A stretch of DNA of 64,000 nucleotides from Streptomyces tuirus (GTDB lineage Bacteria; Actinomycetota; Actinomycetes; Streptomycetales; Streptomycetaceae). The notes under the pieces were generated by a model, which was not told the DNA's origin, made no database searches, and saw only the letters and a program-made list of their open reading frames with translations. Shown here piece by piece: positions 5,593 through 61,150 of the stretch (the first letter of the stretch is position 1; each line of letters starts with the position of its first letter). Made by a program: the position numbers and the translations under genes. The stretch is taken from assembly GCF_014701095.1 (NCBI RefSeq), contig NZ_AP023439.1, forward strand, positions 2,158,001 through 2,222,000, given 5' to 3'.

Positions 5593-7143
5593 ATGGCGGG
5601 ACCCGTCCTGGAAATGCGCTCGATCGTCAAGACCTTTCCCGGCGTCAAGGCGCTGTCGGACGTCACGCTGACCGTCCGGCAGGGCGAGGTCCACGCCATC
5701 TGCGGGGAGAACGGCGCCGGCAAGTCGACCCTGATGAAGGTCCTCTCCGGCGTCCACCCGCACGGCACGTACGAGGGCGACATCCTCTTCGAGGGAGAGG
5801 TCTGCCAGTTCAAGGACATCCGGGCCAGCGAAGAGCGTGGCATCGTGATCATCCACCAGGAACTGGCCCTGGTGCCCTACCTCTCCCTCGCCGAGAACAT
5901 CTTCCTCGGCAACGAGCACGCCACCCGCGGGATCATCAGCTGGACCGAGACCCTCCGGCACGCCACCGAACTGCTGCGCCGGGTCGGCCTGTCGGACCAC
6001 CCCGACACCCGCGTCGCCGACATCGGCGTGGGCAAGCAGCAGCTGGTGGAGATCGCGAAGGCCCTGTCGAAGAAGGTCAAGCTGCTGATCCTCGATGAGC
6101 CGACGGCCGCGCTGAACGACGAGGACAGCGGCAAACTCCTGGATCTGATCCTGGAGTTGAAGAAGCAGGGCATCACCTCGATCATCATCTCCCACAAGCT
6201 CAACGAGATCCGCAAGGTCGCCGACTCGGTGACGATCCTGCGCGACGGCAAGACCATCGAGACCCTCGACGTGAAGGCCGCGGAGACCACCGAGGACCGG
6301 ATCATCAGCGGGATGGTCGGCCGCGACCTGGAGAACCGCTTTCCCGAGAGGTCGCCGCACGAGCCCGAGGAGGGCGCGGCGCCCGCCCTGGAGATCCGGG
6401 GCTGGACCGTGCACCACCCCATCGACCAGCAGCGCAAGGTGTGCGACGACGTCTCGCTCCATGTGCGGCGCGGGGAGATCGTCGGCATCGCGGGCCTGAT
6501 GGGCGCCGGGCGCACCGAACTCGCGATGAGCGTCTTCGGCCGGACCTACGGCCGGTACGCGGACGGCACGGTCCTCAAGGACGGCAAGGAGATCCGCACG
6601 AAGACCGTCCCGGAGGCGGTCAAGCACGGCATCGCCTATGTGACCGAGGACCGCAAGCACTACGGCCTCAACCTCATCGACACCATCAACCGGAACATCT
6701 CGCTGAGCGCCCTGGGCAAGGTCGCGAGGCGCGGTGTGGTCGACGAGCACGAGGAGCGGCAGGTCGCCGAGAGCTTCCGCACGTCCATGAACATCAAGGC
6801 CCCGACGGTGTTCGAGCCGGTGGGCAAGCTGTCCGGCGGCAACCAGCAGAAGGTCGTCCTCAGCAAGTGGATCTTCTCGGGTCCGGACGTGCTGATCCTG
6901 GACGAGCCGACGCGCGGTATCGACGTCGGCGCCAAGTACGAGATCTACACGGTCATCGACCAGCTGGCCGCCCAGGGCAAGGCGGTCGTCTTCATCTCCT
7001 CCGAGCTGCCCGAGCTGCTCGGCATGTGCGACCGCATCTACACGATGGCCGCGGGGCGGCTGACGGGTGAGTTCTCGCGGGCCGAGGCCTCCCAGGAATC
7101 GCTGATGCGTCAGATGACGAAGGACAAAGAGGTAACCCGATGA
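5593..7143 (+). CDS. mmsA: monosaccharide ABC importer ATPase (two fused nucleotide-binding domains)
   Basis: A 516-residue sugar-importer ATPase with tandem domains. Domain 1 has Walker [10 protein letters not shown] (near residue 40), signature-like IGVGKQQL and Walker [12 protein letters not shown]. Domain 2 has a modified Walker [10 protein letters not shown], the signature [14 protein letters not shown] and Walker [15 protein letters not shown]. Modified first-site motifs of this sort are typical of the RbsA/MglA/GguA class. The start is ATG 5593, 7 bp after GAAGG (5581-5585); an upstream TTG at 5578 lies too early. It overlaps the permease by 4 bp. It powers uptake of the sugar delivered by the lipoprotein at 4425-5546. 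Confidence 0.9.
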
Positions 7144-8384
7144 GCACGGACGTGACCGCCAAGAGCCCGGCCCCCGCGCCGCCGGGCAAGAGCGGAGGGG
7201 CCGCGGGCGACGGCCTGTTGCAGCTGGTGATGGACGGCCTGCGCCGCAACATGCGGCAGTACGGCATGCTGATCGCGCTGGGCCTGATCGTGGTCCTGTT
7301 CGCCGTCTGGACCGACGGTGACCTGCTGCTGCCGCGCAACGTCTCCAACCTGGTGCTGCAGAACAGCTACATCCTGATCCTCGCGATCGGCATGATGCTG
7401 GTCATCATCGCCGGCCACATCGACCTCTCGGTCGGCTCACTGACGGCGTTCGTCGGGTCGATGGCCGCCGTCTTCATGGTCAAACAGGACCTTCCCTGGC
7501 CCCTCGCCGTTATCCTCTGCCTGGCCGTGGGCGCGGTCGCCGGTGCCGTCCAGGGGTTCTTCATCGCGTACGGCGGGATACCGTCGTTCATCGTGACCCT
7601 GGCGGGCATGCTGATCTTCCGCGGTCTGACGGAGATCTTCCTGGAGGGCCAGACCCTCGGCCCCTTCCCGGACGGGCTGCAGAAGGTCGCCAATGGATTC
7701 CTGCCCGAGGTCGGGCCCAACACGAACTACCACAACCTCACACTGCTGCTCGGCTTCGCGATGATCGCCTTCGTGATCTTCCAGGAGGTCCGTGACCGCA
7801 AGCGGCAGCAGGAGTTCGACCTGGACGTCCCGCCCGCCAAGCTGTTCCTGCTGAAGCTGGTCGCGATCGGCGCCGCGGTGCTGACGCTCACCATGCTGCT
7901 GGCCAGCTACAAGGGCGCCCCGATCGTGCTGCTCATCCTGGGCGTGCTGCTCGTCGGCTTCGGCTACGTCATGCGCAACGCGATCATCGGCCGTCACATC
8001 TACGCGATCGGCGGCAACCTCCCGGCGGCCAAGCTGTCGGGTGTGAAGGACAAGAAGGTCACCTTCCTGGTCTTCCTGAACATGGGCATGCTCGCGGCCC
8101 TGGCGGGTCTGGTCTTCGCCGCCCGCTTCAACGCGGCCTCTCCCAAGGCCGGCCTCAACTTCGAGCTGGAGGCGATCGCGGCCTCGTTCATCGGCGGTGC
8201 GTCGATGAGCGGCGGTGTCGGCACCGTGCTCGGCGCGATCATCGGTGGCCTGGTCCTGGGCGTGCTGAACAACGGTATGAACCTCGTCGGCATCGGCACC
8301 GACTGGCAGCAGGTCATCAAGGGCCTGGTGCTGCTGGCGGCGGTCGGGTTCGACGTGTGGAACAAGCGCAAGGTCGGTTCGTAA
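7140..8384 (+). CDS. mmsB: monosaccharide ABC importer permease (MmsB/GguB type)
   Basis: A 414-residue integral membrane protein of the ribose/galactoside permease class, with about ten hydrophobic segments after a 40-residue cytoplasmic N-terminus. The family hallmarks are [23 protein letters not shown] (quoted in part), the [12 protein letters not shown] segment and the final [11 protein letters not shown] polar cytoplasmic insert (about residues 220-240, [17 protein letters not shown]) is typical of the long GguB/MmsB-like permeases. The ATGA overlap with the ATPase gene couples their translation. A 10-bp stem hairpin follows the stop. Confidence 0.9.
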
Positions 8385-8393
8385 GTCAGATCG

Positions 8394-8418
8394 GGGCCCC
8401 GCCACAACGGCGGGGCCC
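8394..8418 (+). terminator. 10-bp hairpin between permease and epimerase genes
   Basis: GGGCCCCGCC (8394-8403) and GGCGGGGCCC (8409-8418) pair perfectly across a 5-nt loop, followed by TCTCCTT. It lies within the 57-bp gap before the epimerase, so it may act as a partial terminator that lowers epimerase expression. Confidence 0.65.
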
Positions 8419-8441
8419 TCTCCTTGTTATGGGAGCCGCAC

Positions 8442-9590
8442 ATGGAACTGAACAGACGCACGGTCATCGCGGGAGCAGCGGCGGCGGGCATGGCCGCCAC
8501 CACGCTCGGCGGCACGGCGCACGCCACGGGAGGCAGGAAGCCGGTGAAGACGCTCTTCGGCAAGCTGGCCGACGGCACCAAGGTCCACAGCTGGTCGCTG
8601 GAGAACGGCGGCACCCGCCTGAAGGTCCTCTCCTGGGGCGGAGTCGTCCAGTCCCTGGAGATCCCCGACCGTCGCGGCCGCTACGCCAATGTCTCCGCGG
8701 GCTTCGACAACCTCGCGGACTACGTCGCCAAGACCCCGTACTTCGGCGCGCTGATCGGCCGGTACGGCAACCGCATCGGCAAGGGCAGGTTCACCCTCGA
8801 CGGCACGAACCACCAGCTGTCCGTGAACGACGGCGAGCAGAGCCTGCACGGCGGCGTCCAGGGCTTCGACAAGCGCGTGTGGGACGTCGAGCCGTTCACC
8901 GAGGGCTCCGACGTCGGCCTGCACCTGTACTACACGAGCGTCGACGGCGAGATGGGCTACCCGGGCACGCTCAGGACGAAGGTGACGTACACGCTCACCC
9001 GGCACGGCGACTGGCGCATCGACTACGAGGCGACCACGGACAAGGCCACCGTCGTCAACCTCACCAGCCACGTCTACTGGAACCTGGCCGGCGAGGGCAG
9101 CGGCACGATCGAGGACCACGAGCTGCACATCGCCGCGTCCCGCTACACGCCCACCGACGCGGGCCTGATCCCCACCGGCGAGCTGGCCAAGGTCGCGGGC
9201 ACGCCGTTCGACTTCACGCGGGCGAAGCCGATAGGCCGGGACATCCGCGTCTCGCACCCGCAGCTGGTCACCGCCAAGGGCTTCGACCACAACTGGGTCC
9301 TCGACAAGGGCGTCACCACCCGGCCCGAGCACGTCGCGACCCTGCGCGACCCGGCCTCCGGCCGGTCCTTGAAGATCGCCACGAACGAGCCGGGCCTGCA
9401 GTTCTACTCGGGCAACTTCCTCGACGGCACGCTGACCGGCCCGTCCGGCCGCACCTACCGGCAGGGCGACGCGCTCTGCCTGGAGACGCAGCACTTCCCG
9501 GACTCGCCGAACAAGCCGAAGTTCCCCTCGACGGTGCTGCGACCGGGGCAGACGTACCGCACGACCACGATCCACACGTTCGGTCGCTGA
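8442..9590 (+). CDS. galM: secreted aldose 1-epimerase (mutarotase) with Tat signal
   Basis: A 382-residue GalM-family protein that would interconvert alpha and beta anomers of galactose and related sugars. Family motifs are present: GGVVQSLEIPDR (near 70), the GNRIGKGRFTLDG block with NDGEQSLHGG (family His), and NLTSHVYWNLAGEGSG (catalytic His), with PTGELAKVAGTPFDF later. The N-terminus NRRTVIAGAAAAGM is a twin-arginine signal, so it acts outside the cell, presumably preparing sugar for the importer encoded upstream. The start is ATG 8442 after GGGAG. Confidence 0.85.
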   Translation: MELNRRTVIAGAAAAGMAATTLGGTAHATGGRKPVKTLFGKLADGTKVHSWSLENGGTRLKVLSWGGVVQSLEIPDRRGRYANVSAGFDNLADYVAKTPYFGALIGRYGNRIGKGRFTLDGTNHQLSVNDGEQSLHGGVQGFDKRVWDVEPFTEGSDVGLHLYYTSVDGEMGYPGTLRTKVTYTLTRHGDWRIDYEATTDKATVVNLTSHVYWNLAGEGSGTIEDHELHIAASRYTPTDAGLIPTGELAKVAGTPFDFTRAKPIGRDIRVSHPQLVTAKGFDHNWVLDKGVTTRPEHVATLRDPASGRSLKIATNEPGLQFYSGNFLDGTLTGPSGRTYRQGDALCLETQHFPDSPNKPKFPSTVLRPGQTYRTTTIHTFGR

Positions 9591-9678
9591 GGCCGCTGAC
9601 GGGCCTTCACACCATGGGCGCCCCGTTCCGGCCGTTCTCCCGACGGTTGAACGGTGTCCCTGTGGCCTCCGTATGAAG

Positions 9679-9710
9679 GGGCGGCCCGTGCTCCCCCGCG
9701 CGGGCCGCCC
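9679..9710 (+). terminator. hairpin terminator after the epimerase gene
   Basis: GGGCGGCCCG (9679-9688) pairs perfectly with CGGGCCGCCC (9701-9710), followed by TTAAA. It closes the sugar-uptake operon. Confidence 0.75.
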
Positions 9711-9762
9711 TTAAACGTCGGGTCCGTCCGTCCCCAACGGGCCCGCCCCATACGGAGGTTCC

Positions 9763-11526
9763 ATGGCCGACAACGTCACGTCGCTGTTCCGCAGTACCGC
9801 GGCACACAGCCCGTCGATGGCGGCTCTGACACGTGAGGGCGGCGAGGGAGCCGGCCCCGTGGACTTCTGTATCCCCTGCAACCCGTACTTCCCGACCCCG
9901 GCCATGTTCGAGGACATGGCGGGCCGGCTGCGCGACATCATCACCTACTACCCGAGCAGCGCCGACACGATCACCGCCGAGCTGTGCAGCCTGCTGCAGC
10001 TCCCGCCGCAGTGCGTGGCCATGGGCAACGGCTCGACCGAGCTCATCACCTGGATCGACCATCTGCTGGTCCGCGAGTCACTCGCCGTCCCCGTCCCCAC
10101 CTTCGGCCGCTGGACCGACCAGCCCATGGAGACCGGCAAGCGGGTCGACATGTTCCCGCTCCAGGAGTCCAGCGGCTTCGCCCTCGACCTCGCGCAGTAC
10201 GCCGAGTTCATCCGGGCCCGCGGCACCCGCGTCGCGGTGATCTGCAACCCCAACAACCCCGACGGCGGTTTCCTGCACAAGCACGCCATCGTGCAGTTCA
10301 TGGACGCCATGGCCGACCTCGACCTGGTCGTGATCGACGAGTCGTTCCTGGAGTTCGCGGACGCCGAGGCCGAGCCGTCGGTCGTCCAGGAGGCGATGCT
10401 GCGGCCCAACGTGGTCGTGCTGCGCAGCCTCGGCAAGAACTTCGGCCTGCACGGCATCCGCTTCGGCTATCTCGTCGCCAACCCGGCGCTCGCGGGCCGG
10501 GTCCGCTCGATGCTGCCGAAGTGGAACCTCAACTCCTTCGCCGAGCACGTCGTCTTCATGCTCAAGGAGCACGGCGCCGAGTACGCGCAGAGCCTCCAGC
10601 AGGTGCGCCGCGACCGCCTCGACATGGCCGGCCAGCTCTCCTCCCTGCCCGGGCTCACGGTCTACCCCTCGCAGGGCAACTTCCTCTTCGTGCGCCTCCC
10701 CGTGGGCGCCGAGGGCACCGTGGTCCGGGACCGCATGCTCACCGAGCACCGGATCCTGGTCCGCGAGTGCGGCAACAAGATCGGTTCGTCCAGTCGCTTC
10801 CTGCGTCTCGTGGTGCGCCCCCAGGTGGACGTGCGTCGCCTGGTGTCCGGCCTGGAACAGGTGCTCTACGGGACGTCCAGGAGGGGAGCCGCCGTACCCG
10901 AGCTGGGCAATGGGACCAGCTACAGCTCGGGTACGGCGGCCGTGGACCGGCTGGTGAGCGAGACGAACGGGTCGGGCATGCGGGGGCTCGCGGCGCAGGC
11001 GGTGGGGATGGCCGCGGCGCAGGCCCCCGCCGCGGCCACGGGGGCCGTTGGGCCGGGGCTCGCCCCGGCGGCCGCGAGCACGGGTGGGGCGGGGTTCGCT
11101 CCCGCCGCGGCGGCCGCCGCCCCGGCTCCCGCTCCGGCCACCGGTATCGGCATGCCGCTCCCCGCCGCCGCGTCCGCCGTGCCGGCGGGTACGAGCGGCG
11201 GGATGCCGATGCCGGCTGCGGCGCAGATGCCGCAGCCGCAGGTGCCGCAGCCCCAGATGCCGCAGGCGGTGCCGCAGCCCGCTCCCCAGCCGGTGGCCGC
11301 CCCGGCGCCGCCCCTGGCGCCGGTGGCCCAGGCCCCGGCTCCCGCGCCCGCGCCGTCGCCCATGGCCGCTCCGTTCACCGGGCCCACGCCGCCCGGTGTC
11401 CCGGCCCGTGGGGGCCTGACGGCGGCGCAGGTGCGCGGCACGAACGGGCTGACGCCCGCGCCGGCCACGGGCTGGCCCGCGGCGCAGAGCTGGCCGAACG
11501 CGGCGGGGATGGGGCAGGCGGGGTAG
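9763..11526 (+). CDS. class I/II PLP aminotransferase (HisC-like) with a 200-residue Pro/Ala-rich tail
   Basis: Residues 1-370 form a fold-type-I aminotransferase resembling histidinol-phosphate or threonine-phosphate enzymes: GNGSTELI near 88 (PLP phosphate), CNPNNPDG (near 163), VVIDESFLEF (PLP-ring Asp), SLGKNFGLHGIRFGY with the Schiff-base Lys225, and RLVVRP near the end (carboxylate Arg). The ATG at 9763 follows ACGGAGG. Residues 380-587 are low complexity: long runs of Ala, Pro, Gly, Gln and Met with QMPQPQVPQPQMPQ-type repeats and no predicted fold, an unusual addition for this class. The substrate is unknown; no histidine-biosynthesis gene is nearby. Confidence 0.75.
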   Translation: MADNVTSLFRSTAAHSPSMAALTREGGEGAGPVDFCIPCNPYFPTPAMFEDMAGRLRDIITYYPSSADTITAELCSLLQLPPQCVAMGNGSTELITWIDHLLVRESLAVPVPTFGRWTDQPMETGKRVDMFPLQESSGFALDLAQYAEFIRARGTRVAVICNPNNPDGGFLHKHAIVQFMDAMADLDLVVIDESFLEFADAEAEPSVVQEAMLRPNVVVLRSLGKNFGLHGIRFGYLVANPALAGRVRSMLPKWNLNSFAEHVVFMLKEHGAEYAQSLQQVRRDRLDMAGQLSSLPGLTVYPSQGNFLFVRLPVGAEGTVVRDRMLTEHRILVRECGNKIGSSSRFLRLVVRPQVDVRRLVSGLEQVLYGTSRRGAAVPELGNGTSYSSGTAAVDRLVSETNGSGMRGLAAQAVGMAAAQAPAAATGAVGPGLAPAAASTGGAGFAPAAAAAAPAPAPATGIGMPLPAAASAVPAGTSGGMPMPAAAQMPQPQVPQPQMPQAVPQPAPQPVAAPAPPLAPVAQAPAPAPAPSPMAAPFTGPTPPGVPARGGLTAAQVRGTNGLTPAPATGWPAAQSWPNAAGMGQAG

Positions 11527-58237: not shown

Positions 58238-59203
58238 ATGGGTACCGCTGTGCATGTCCCGCAGACGCGGGACATGATCGGGGAGGAACTCTCCGGGGAT
58301 GAGGCGTTCACCGCGCTGCGGCGCTACGGGGGCCGCCGGCTGCTCGTCGACGCGTTCACCCGGTTCCGCTACGCCGACGGCTTCACCAACTCCCGCGCCC
58401 TCGCCTTCCAGGTGGTCCTCGGCATGGTGCCGTTCACCATCGCCCTGGTCGGCGTCGCCACCACCGTGCACACCGAGAGCGTGGGGCGGATCATCGAACT
58501 CACCCTGGGCCGGATCGTGCCCGGCGCCAGCGCGGAGCTGATCGAGGACGCCCTCGACAGCACCGAGCGCAGCGCCGGTTCCGGCGCCTGGGGCGCTGTC
58601 GCGATGTGGACGGGCCTGGCCTTCGCCGTGCTCAACCTGGCCTCGGCGATGGCCCAGGTCGAGCGGGGCGCCAACCGCATCTACGGCATCGAGCGCGACC
58701 GGCCCTTCCTGGCCAAGTACGGCCGTGGCCTGCTGCTGGCCCTCGCCGCGGGCATGCCGATGGTCCTGGGGTTCCTCGTGCTCGTCGCGGGCGAGGCCGT
58801 CGGCAGTGCGGTGGTGGAGACCTACGGCTGGTCCCGTACCTGGCTCGACTGGTGGGGCGTCCTGGACGTGCCGCTGGGCGTGCTGCTCGCCTGGGTCGCC
58901 TCGTCGGTGATCTTCCGCTGGGCGCCGCGGCGGGACCAACCGGGCTACACCTGGCTGGCGTTCGGCTCGGCGGTCCATCTGGTGCTGTGGATCACGGCCA
59001 CCTGGCTGCTGTCCCTCTACGTCGCCGAGAGCGGTTCCTTCGGCGCGGTGTACGGGCCGCTGACGGCGTTCGTCGCCCTGCTGCTGTGGGCCAACCTGAC
59101 CGGGGTGGTCCTGTTCCTCGGCATCGCCTTCGCCGCTCAGCTGGAGGCGGCCCGGGCCGGCGTCACCGAGGCCGTGCACCCGGACCCGGGGCCGGGTCCG
59201 TGA
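58238..59203 (+). CDS. YihY/BrkB-family membrane protein
   Basis: A 321-residue protein with six membrane spans in the YihY/virulence-factor BrkB pattern: SRALAFQVVLGMVPFTIALVGVA, LAFAVLNLASAMAQVERGANRIYGIERDRPF, and YGPLTAFVALLLWANLTGVVLFLGIAFAAQLEA (quoted by pattern). Members were once called RNase BN, which is no longer accepted; the role is unknown. The ATG at 58238 follows AGAAGGAGA. The end is Pro/Gly-rich. Confidence 0.85.
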   Translation: MGTAVHVPQTRDMIGEELSGDEAFTALRRYGGRRLLVDAFTRFRYADGFTNSRALAFQVVLGMVPFTIALVGVATTVHTESVGRIIELTLGRIVPGASAELIEDALDSTERSAGSGAWGAVAMWTGLAFAVLNLASAMAQVERGANRIYGIERDRPFLAKYGRGLLLALAAGMPMVLGFLVLVAGEAVGSAVVETYGWSRTWLDWWGVLDVPLGVLLAWVASSVIFRWAPRRDQPGYTWLAFGSAVHLVLWITATWLLSLYVAESGSFGAVYGPLTAFVALLLWANLTGVVLFLGIAFAAQLEAARAGVTEAVHPDPGPGP

Positions 59204-59251
59204 CGTCCCCCGGCTGACGCGCGCCCGGCCCCCTCTGATCACCGCGCCGAA

Positions 59252-59270
59252 CCAGGACGTATCGTCCTGG
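59252..59270 (+). promoter_or_regulatory. 19-bp dyad abutting the start of the prenyltransferase fusion gene
   Basis: CCAGGACG (59252-59259) and CGTCCTGG (59263-59270) pair perfectly across TAT and end 2 bp before the GTG at 59273. There is no good ribosome site. TATCGT within it could be a -10 box of a leaderless transcript, so the dyad may be an operator on a leaderless promoter. Confidence 0.4.
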
Positions 59271-59272
59271 GT

Positions 59273-61150
59273 GTGAGCGAAGTGCCCCCCGCGACCACAG
59301 CACCGGCAGACCTCGAAGCGACCTCCACACCCCCCGGACCGGCCGGCCCCCCGCCGACCGGCGACGACCCGGCCCTGCGGGCGGCCTACCGACTGTGCCG
59401 GCGCCGTACGAAGCACGAGGACCCGGCGGAGTACGCGCTGATCCAGCTGGTGCCCGCGGCCCTGCGCCCGGCGCTGCACGCCCTGTGGGCCGCCGCCAAC
59501 GCCCTGGACGACCTGGGCGACGACCGCACCGCGCCCGCCGCCGAGCGGGCCGCCCGGGTCGGGGCCTGGATCACCGCCCTGCACCGCGAACTGCCCACCG
59601 GATCAAGCCCGGACCCGGTCCGCCGCGCCCTGGTGGACACCGCGAACCGCTGGCGCCTGGACCTGTCCGAGCTGCGGGACGCCATGGCCCAGGTCCAGGA
59701 GGACACCGGCGGCAGGCACTTCACCGACTGGGCCGAGTGGCGCGCCTGGGGCCGGGACAACCTCCTGCCCTGGTTCGGCCTGGTCCGCACGGTCTTCGAC
59801 CGGGCCGGAGTCCCCGTCGCGCTGCGGCTGGACACCCGGGAGACCTATGAGGAGTTCCTCGACGGCGTCCGGCTCACCGACATCCTCACCGACCTGGCCG
59901 CCGACCTCGCCCAGGGCGACCTCCTGCTGCCCGCCGAGGCCCTCGACCTGCACCCCGGGTCGGCGGCCGATCTGGCCCGGCGCCGCTGGAGCCCCGCCGT
60001 CGCCGCCCTGGTCACGCATGTGACCGGCCTGGCCCGCCAGTGGGTGAGCCACGAGTCCCTCACCCGCGGCATGCACCCCGGCCCCGCCACGGTCCTGCAC
60101 ACGATGGCCGCCCTGCTGCGCGCCCAGCTCGACGCGATCGACGCCGCGGGTCCGGCCCTGCTCCGCTCCCCGCCCCGGCCCGCGCTGCGCACCCGGGCCC
60201 GCATCCTCGCCCCCGCCCGGACCCGCGCGGCCCTGGCCTGGAGCCTGACCCCGCTGACGGTGCCGCCGCCCCAGCGCCCCGGCGCCCACCGGCCGCCGGC
60301 CCCCGCCGGGCCGGCACCCGCCCCCGGCACCTTCCGGCCGCCGCCGCCCCACCCGAGCGGCGCGCGGCCCCCGGAGATCCCGCCCGGTGATCTGCCCGCC
60401 CATGTCGCCGTGATCATGGACGGCAACGGCCGCTGGGCCCAGCAGCGCGGCCTGCCCCGGCACGAGGGCCACCGCGCAGGTGCCGCCGCGGTCCGCGAGG
60501 TGGTGTACGGCGCCCTGGACCTCGGCCTGCGCCATCTGACGCTCTACACCTTCTCCACCGAGAACTGGCACCGGGACCCGGAGGAGGTCGACGCGATCCT
60601 CGACCTGCTGCGCCGCGAGATGACCGAGAACCCCTTCCGCGACCTGGACGTCCGGCTGCGCTGGCACGGCCGCGCCGGCCGCCTGCCGCCCGACCTGGTC
60701 GACGTCCTCCATCTGCGCGAACGCACCACCCGCGCCCGCACCGGCCTGACCCTGACGATGTGCATCGACTACGGCGGCCGGGACGAGCTCACCCGCACGG
60801 CCGCCGCCCTGGCCCACCGGGCCCGGGAGGGGCGCCTGGAGCCCGGCCTGATCGCCGAGGACGACTTCGCCCGGCACCTGCCCCTGGCGGACCTGCCGGA
60901 CGTGGACCTGCTCTGGCGCACGGGCGGCGAACAGCGCGTCTCCAACTTCCTGCCCTGGCACGCTGCCTACGCGGAGCTGCACTTCACGCCCGGCCTCTGG
61001 CCGGACACCGACCGCCGCGACCTCTGGCAGGCGCTGGCCGCGTACACCCACCGCCAGCGGCACCACGGCGCGACTCCGGCTTCACCCCCTGCCGACGGTC
61101 CGTCAGCAGCCCACTGCTCGACGGCCCCTGCCGCGGGGCCGGGCGGGTGA
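59273..61150 (+). CDS. fusion of a squalene/phytoene-synthase-like domain and a cis-prenyltransferase
   Basis: A 625-residue two-enzyme chain. Residues about 30-300 are a trans head-to-head prenyl-synthase-like domain with both Asp-rich motifs, ALDDLGDD (79-84) and RLTDILTD (203-207). Residues 300-375 are a Pro/Ala linker. Residues 375-600 are an undecaprenyl-diphosphate-synthase-type cis-prenyltransferase with VIMDGNGRWAQQRGLPRHEGH (Asp383), TLYTFSTENW, and DLLWRTGGEQRVSNFLPWHAAYAEL. All catalytic motifs look complete. It might couple chain elongation with a head-to-head coupling step, or the N-terminal domain may only regulate. A separate uppS is expected elsewhere in the genome. Confidence 0.8.
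   Translation: MSEVPPATTAPADLEATSTPPGPAGPPPTGDDPALRAAYRLCRRRTKHEDPAEYALIQLVPAALRPALHALWAAANALDDLGDDRTAPAAERAARVGAWITALHRELPTGSSPDPVRRALVDTANRWRLDLSELRDAMAQVQEDTGGRHFTDWAEWRAWGRDNLLPWFGLVRTVFDRAGVPVALRLDTRETYEEFLDGVRLTDILTDLAADLAQGDLLLPAEALDLHPGSAADLARRRWSPAVAALVTHVTGLARQWVSHESLTRGMHPGPATVLHTMAALLRAQLDAIDAAGPALLRSPPRPALRTRARILAPARTRAALAWSLTPLTVPPPQRPGAHRPPAPAGPAPAPGTFRPPPPHPSGARPPEIPPGDLPAHVAVIMDGNGRWAQQRGLPRHEGHRAGAAAVREVVYGALDLGLRHLTLYTFSTENWHRDPEEVDAILDLLRREMTENPFRDLDVRLRWHGRAGRLPPDLVDVLHLRERTTRARTGLTLTMCIDYGGRDELTRTAAALAHRAREGRLEPGLIAEDDFARHLPLADLPDVDLLWRTGGEQRVSNFLPWHAAYAELHFTPGLWPDTDRRDLWQALAAYTHRQRHHGATPASPPADGPSAAHCSTAPAAGPGG

Follow-up and report, generated by a model that had tools for sequence, protein, structure and literature searches.

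A conserved Streptomyces fusion of a squalene/phytoene synthase-like domain with a cis-prenyltransferase, a candidate two-step prenyl enzyme

A single open reading frame of Streptomyces tuirus joins a domain of the squalene/phytoene synthase family (SQS_PSY) to a cis-prenyltransferase (cis-PT), and this fusion is conserved in other Streptomyces genomes. The gene lies in a 64,000-nucleotide stretch of contig NZ_AP023439.1, which was analysed as a whole and is called the window below. We consider it rather likely, from sequence comparison, that the fusion is a two-step prenyl enzyme in which the C domain would make a (Z)-prenyl diphosphate for the N domain, which would couple that chain to a second molecule. 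Taken singly, the two halves are familiar enzyme types; what is new, as far as we checked, is their conserved fusion and the cassette to which it belongs. No paper on a fusion of these two domains was found in the open-access literature, with subscription journals mostly outside the coverage of the search.

Results

The reading frame is open over its whole length (Table 1), both Pfam domains lie within it and homologues are full-length in many genomes, which bears out the original prediction of a one-chain fusion. Its GTG start position is kept in four relatives. When the N domain was used as the query, the fusion family was detected in 20 of 150 sampled Streptomyces genomes (about one in eight), clearly apart from the ordinary SQS_PSY genes. 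The 21 loci comprised 15 intact fusions, three at a contig end and three that were frameshifted or truncated; the N domains of the intact copies were 37-93% identical to the query, and a full-length copy was present in S. pseudovenezuelae (L008). The search for the fusion in relatives, which had been proposed as a check, thus returned 15 intact fusions from independent genomes, and others besides. A profile search of 395 genomes of the class confined the high-scoring group to Streptomyces. A family search brought in a second genus of the Streptomycetaceae (L172 in genome G554) and an outlier, L173 (G668), with degraded Asp motifs (DALAG, RELCED) and an intact cis-PT. Four genomes carried two fusion copies of different subclades. 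One plasmid record had a long match, a copy of S. tendae that is truncated at its N end (L277, NZ_CP043960.1, 376054-377667) and located near a terminal-protein gene on a 408-kb megaplasmid; in this record, the one annotated record found, the fusion was labelled only as uppS.

A free-standing N domain of the fusion clade was not found in the genomes searched. The N domains form one clade (support 100/98) and so do the C domains (99/97), which is consistent with a single fusion event. Between the window's copy and its close relatives, dN/dS was 0.24-0.53 for the N domain and 0.11-0.34 for the C domain; the N domain is under purifying selection. A sequencing join was ruled out by the full-length homologues in many independent genomes and by dN/dS below 1 in both domains. 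A sequence error or pseudogene merging two adjacent genes could call on the few relatives that are frameshifted or truncated (L092, L097 and L107), but the intact fused copies in independent genomes make its probability negligible.

Table 1. Coordinates, within the window, of the fusion gene, its parts and the adjoining features
Feature	Position	Strand	Remarks
BrkB/YihY-family membrane protein gene	58238..59203	+	directly upstream of the fusion; Pfam PF03631; link uncertain
Probable leaderless promoter, TGATC - ~17 nt - TATCGT - GTG	59229..59272	+	conserved upstream in relatives
Perfect palindrome CCAGGACGTATCGTCCTGG	59252..59270		directly before the GTG, overlapped by the promoter-like block
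Fusion gene, SQS_PSY-like + cis-prenyltransferase domains	59273..61150	+	625 aa, GTG start
SQS/phytoene-synthase-like N domain	59414..60187	+	residues 48-305; Pfam PF00494
First Asp motif, D79xxxD83 (inside DDLGDD)	59507..59521	+	invariant in 21 N domains
Second Asp motif, D203xxxD207xxxD211	59879..59905	+	D203 in place of the usual Asn
Pro-rich linker	60257..60388	+	its distal part, PHPSGARPPEIP, corresponds to the N-terminal extension seen in ordinary UppS of Streptomyces
cis-prenyltransferase C domain	60413..61069	+	residues 381-599; PF01255, TIGR00055; model match to 7cpm
cis-PT MDGNGRW motif (M382-W388)	60416..60436	+	M382-W388 invariant in fusion alignment
cis-PT RTGGEQR motif (R549-R555)	60917..60937	+	R549 and R555 invariant in fusion alignment

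The N domain scored 65.3 bits against the Pfam model SQS_PSY (cut-off 26, E 9.5e-18), and both this score and the presence of the Asp pairs D79/D83 and D207/D211 place it in the SQS_PSY superfamily. The two DxxxD motifs are invariant across the 21 N domains, down to an identity of 37%; only the outlier L173 lacks the second Asp of the first motif. The original prediction had named DDLGDD and DILTD as the two Asp-rich motifs. The former was correct, whereas the latter was out of register: the canonical DxxxD is DLAAD (D207-D211), and DILTD, one step upstream of it, lines up with NxLRD in ordinary enzymes.

We chose Arg45, Tyr129, Asn168 and Arg171 (CrtM numbering) as residues that we take to be typical of head-to-head synthases. 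All four were kept in 52 of the 52 ordinary SQS_PSY homologues compared, whereas the window's clade has N76, W159, D203 and T206 at these positions, so that the window's protein lacks the whole set. N76 and W159 are specific to this clade, Arg and Tyr being retained in the other subclades; those linked to DUF6230/DUF6114 genes retain Arg and Tyr and have the Asn likewise changed to Asp. Because the Arg, Tyr and Asn/Arg of ordinary homologues are replaced, the head-to-head chemistry that had been proposed for the domain is doubtful in the window's clade. A true head-to-head synthase, in which the N domain would take two (Z)-prenyl diphosphates from the C domain and join them to a cis-polyene resembling squalene or phytoene, would agree with the Pfam match and both Asp pairs, and it is possible in particular in the subclades with Arg and Tyr retained; set against the four replaced residues and scores far under the cut-offs of the NCBIfam models HpnC (58.3 vs 250.45 bits) and HpnD (68.5 vs 278.6 bits), we regard it as unlikely. 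The missed cut-offs and the genome's own SQS_PSY copies elsewhere also ruled out a hopanoid HpnC/HpnD role.

In profile comparisons, the best PDB match of the N domains was HpnC (4hd1, 7.6e-28), and the match to LvqB4 (7vws, 1.2e-24) came ahead of CrtM and phytoene synthase. LvqB4 belongs, with CqsB4, to a group of SQS-like prenyltransferases. Both of these carbazole prenyltransferases have the Asn-to-Asp change and the RxxRLxxW and ALVHTxxTWxL patterns in common with the fusions. They are approximately 25% identical to the N domain, and a tree that was built without the NzsG and DmtC1 sequences gave support of 51/10 for the N-domain sister group and did not resolve LvqB4/CqsB4 in that place. 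At this level of support, a relationship to LvqB4/CqsB4 is a lead and no more.

A weaker profile match was obtained with YisP (3we9, 1.2e-7), whose PDB entry is titled putative phytoene/squalene synthase and which is, according to a published description, a phosphatase acting on farnesyl diphosphate (PMC10148934). Like the N domain, YisP is an SQS_PSY-family protein, here with a non-coupling activity, although it is free-standing and comes from another group of organisms. By analogy, the N domain might strip the diphosphate from the C-domain product and release a free (Z)-polyprenol, for which no acceptor gene would be necessary. Given that the YisP match is weak beside HpnC and LvqB4, and that no positive feature points to hydrolysis, such a hydrolase appears improbable.

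The C domain matched Prenyltransf in Pfam over the full model length (229.8 bits vs a cut-off of 27, E 3.7e-68) and passed TIGR00055 (214.8 vs 109.55 bits). DGNGRW, FSTENW.R, RTGGEQR...SNF and E568 were all present and showed little or no variation across 24 fusions, in agreement with the complete set of cis-PT motifs that had been predicted. The domain is 48-50% identical to the decaprenyl-PP synthase Rv2361c and to the dodecaprenyl-PP synthase of Thermobifida fusca (7cpm). With actinobacterial UppS it shares all motif residues, the fold and the PHPSGARPP extension of Streptomyces UppS; it differs in that the fusion C domains form their separate clade, stand behind an SQS-like domain and are not the genome's only uppS, and in that most of them, the window's included, lack two residues of the helix that precedes DVRLRW. 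This deletion hints that the product chain length may differ from that of ordinary UppS. As for the Pro-rich linker, its end, PHPSGARPP.IP, aligned with the N-terminal extension of L001, the genome's ordinary UppS. Because the distal part belongs to this extension, approximately 30 residues of the predicted linker are truly a linker and the rest is UppS.

In the AlphaFold2 model (65 sequences), both domains were confident (mean pLDDT 87.9), while their relative placement is uncertain because of a pTM of 0.66; within the linker, near residues 335-351, the confidence of the models was low. The model C domain superposed on 7cpm with a TM of 0.93 by target. None of the 50 structural matches listed, for both models, covered the N domain, all of them being of the cis-PT fold, and the N-domain fold therefore draws on the sequence profiles and the confident helical model.

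Besides the fusion, the genome holds two cis-PT genes and three SQS_PSY genes. L001 is an ordinary Streptomyces uppS, which groups (100/100) with uppS of S. misionensis and is 45% identical to the fusion C domain. The proposed count of other uppS and sqs genes thus yielded a housekeeping-type uppS and three further SQS_PSY genes, so neither fusion half is the only copy of its kind. The separate uppS ruled out the fusion as the housekeeping UppS. The earlier suggestion that the first domain regulates undecaprenyl supply for the nearby envelope genes found no support, since this uppS exists and since the fusion of relatives lies in unrelated neighbourhoods, where it often follows an ABC-exporter pair or a DUF6230/DUF6114 pair. 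A catalytically inert N domain that merely positions or regulates an extra UppS could be reconciled with the outlier L173, where the Asp motifs are degraded and the cis-PT is intact, and with a dN/dS somewhat above that of the C domain. With the Asp pairs invariant in 21 of 21 aligned N domains, the purifying selection and a housekeeping-type uppS elsewhere in the genome, we judge it quite improbable.

The window's fusion adjoins the BrkB gene and tRNA genes. The BrkB gene is also present beside five of the other fusions and is absent, at the same locus, from three. The window's copy probably has its own leaderless promoter, as suggested by a promoter-like block that is conserved 5' of five relatives; the palindrome region is a possible leaderless promoter or operator. 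No conserved biosynthetic cluster surrounds the fusion: the loci differ, and the recurring partners are only BrkB, a pair of ABC transporter genes and DUF6230/DUF6114; genes for DUF6230 and DUF6114 lie upstream of the fusion at six other loci.

Directly upstream of seven fusions is a gene pair for a small ATPase of the ABC type and an ABC-2 permease; in L008 the two genes overlap and the permease gene ends 17 bases before the fusion. The window's own genome has no such pair. At seven further loci this pair, with 73-78% identity in the ATPase and 60-63% in the permease, stands in front of an SQS-like gene that is not fused. A gene for a trans-polyprenyl synthetase comes next and was confirmed in L193 as PF00348 (7.2e-53). 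In L193 and L194, where the ATPase was 76-78% and the permease approximately 62% identical, the SQS-like gene showed approximately 30% identity to the fusion N domain. Of 40 loci found by a permease search, six had the fusion and eight had an SQS-like gene standing on its own, accompanied in some cases by a prenyl synthase; an SQS-like gene was thus nearby at 14 of 40 loci vs a rough chance, which ignores kinship, of approximately 0.4% per locus. This arrangement points to a partnership between the SQS-like part and a supplier of prenyl diphosphate, which can be the fused cis-PT or a separate trans-synthase. Since the pair precedes the fusions and, elsewhere, an SQS-like gene with a trans-synthase, the C domain most likely supplies the N domain. 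An acceptor-making gene co-conserved with the fusion was not found in the neighbourhoods compared, and the free-standing cassette contains only the prenyl synthase, the SQS-like gene and the exporter, both of which would suit head-to-head coupling.

Other arrangements were also observed. In L196 (G668, 6994-9762, minus strand), an ABC-2 permease-like region, an SQS-like part with degraded Asp motifs (DALAG, RELCED) and a cis-PT were detected in one 923-aa ORF (tblastn, Pfam). In L128 (G060, 8084-11434, plus strand), a region resembling FAD-dependent oxidoreductases shares one open frame of 1117 aa with an SQS-like and a cis-PT part. In L250 (G077), approximately 5 kb contain the ABC pair, an SQS-like gene that stands alone, a trans-prenyl synthase and, encoded on the opposite strand, a separate cis-PT. 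At seven loci (L255, L263-L268) the same ABC pair was seen, by eye, with genes for a putative WS/DGAT-type acyltransferase, a flavin monooxygenase and a small secreted protein.

Discussion

In the two-step reading that we prefer, the C domain, derived from an actinobacterial UppS copy, would add IPP to an allylic diphosphate and so form a (Z)-prenyl diphosphate. With Mg2+ bound at its two Asp pairs, the N domain would take up this product, ionise it and join the chain to another molecule. Channelling of a prenyl diphosphate from one site to the other, which the original prediction had raised, is plausible, and the new chemistry that it envisaged is possible. For the window's clade, prenyl transfer to an acceptor other than IPP, as in NzsG, CqsB4, LvqB4 and DmtC1, seems likelier than classical head-to-head coupling. 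Points against the reading are the low tree support for the N-domain sister group, the lack of a co-conserved acceptor-making gene, the absence of the ABC pair from the genome studied here and the restriction of N76 and W159 to one clade. The product would probably be a lipophilic terpenoid or prenyl lipid, which in several relatives may be exported by the dedicated ABC transporter.

NzsG is an SQS-like prenyltransferase that dimethylallylates a carbazole (PMC7466098), and DmtC1 transfers a farnesyl group to a diketopiperazine (PMC6173783). Together with CqsB4 and LvqB4, they are SQS_PSY relatives with both Asp pairs, yet they use a non-prenyl acceptor (PMC7466098, PMC6173783); unlike the fusion, they are free-standing, and their clusters contain genes for making the acceptor. 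HpnC, HpnD, CrtM and phytoene synthase share the fold family and the Asp pairs of the N domain, but their Arg, Tyr, Asn and Arg are replaced in the window's clade.

Few enzymes are known to consume long cis-prenyl diphosphates beyond those of cell-wall or glycan carriers. More tentatively, we propose that this bifunctional enzyme might lead to a new class of cis-prenyl lipids, and that a wider Streptomyces cassette, composed of the ABC exporter, the SQS-like enzyme and a prenyl synthase that is either cis and fused or trans and separate, might swap the chain stereochemistry by exchanging the supplier. In cassettes that otherwise match, the exchange of a cis- for a trans-supplier makes the idea of supply and use directly testable. 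The linkage to one family of ABC exporters offers a hook for genome mining, and the fusion gives a handle on how SQS-like proteins shifted to other couplings. As a conserved union of a supplier with a consumer, it would also offer a direct route to a Streptomyces lipid or terpenoid not yet described.
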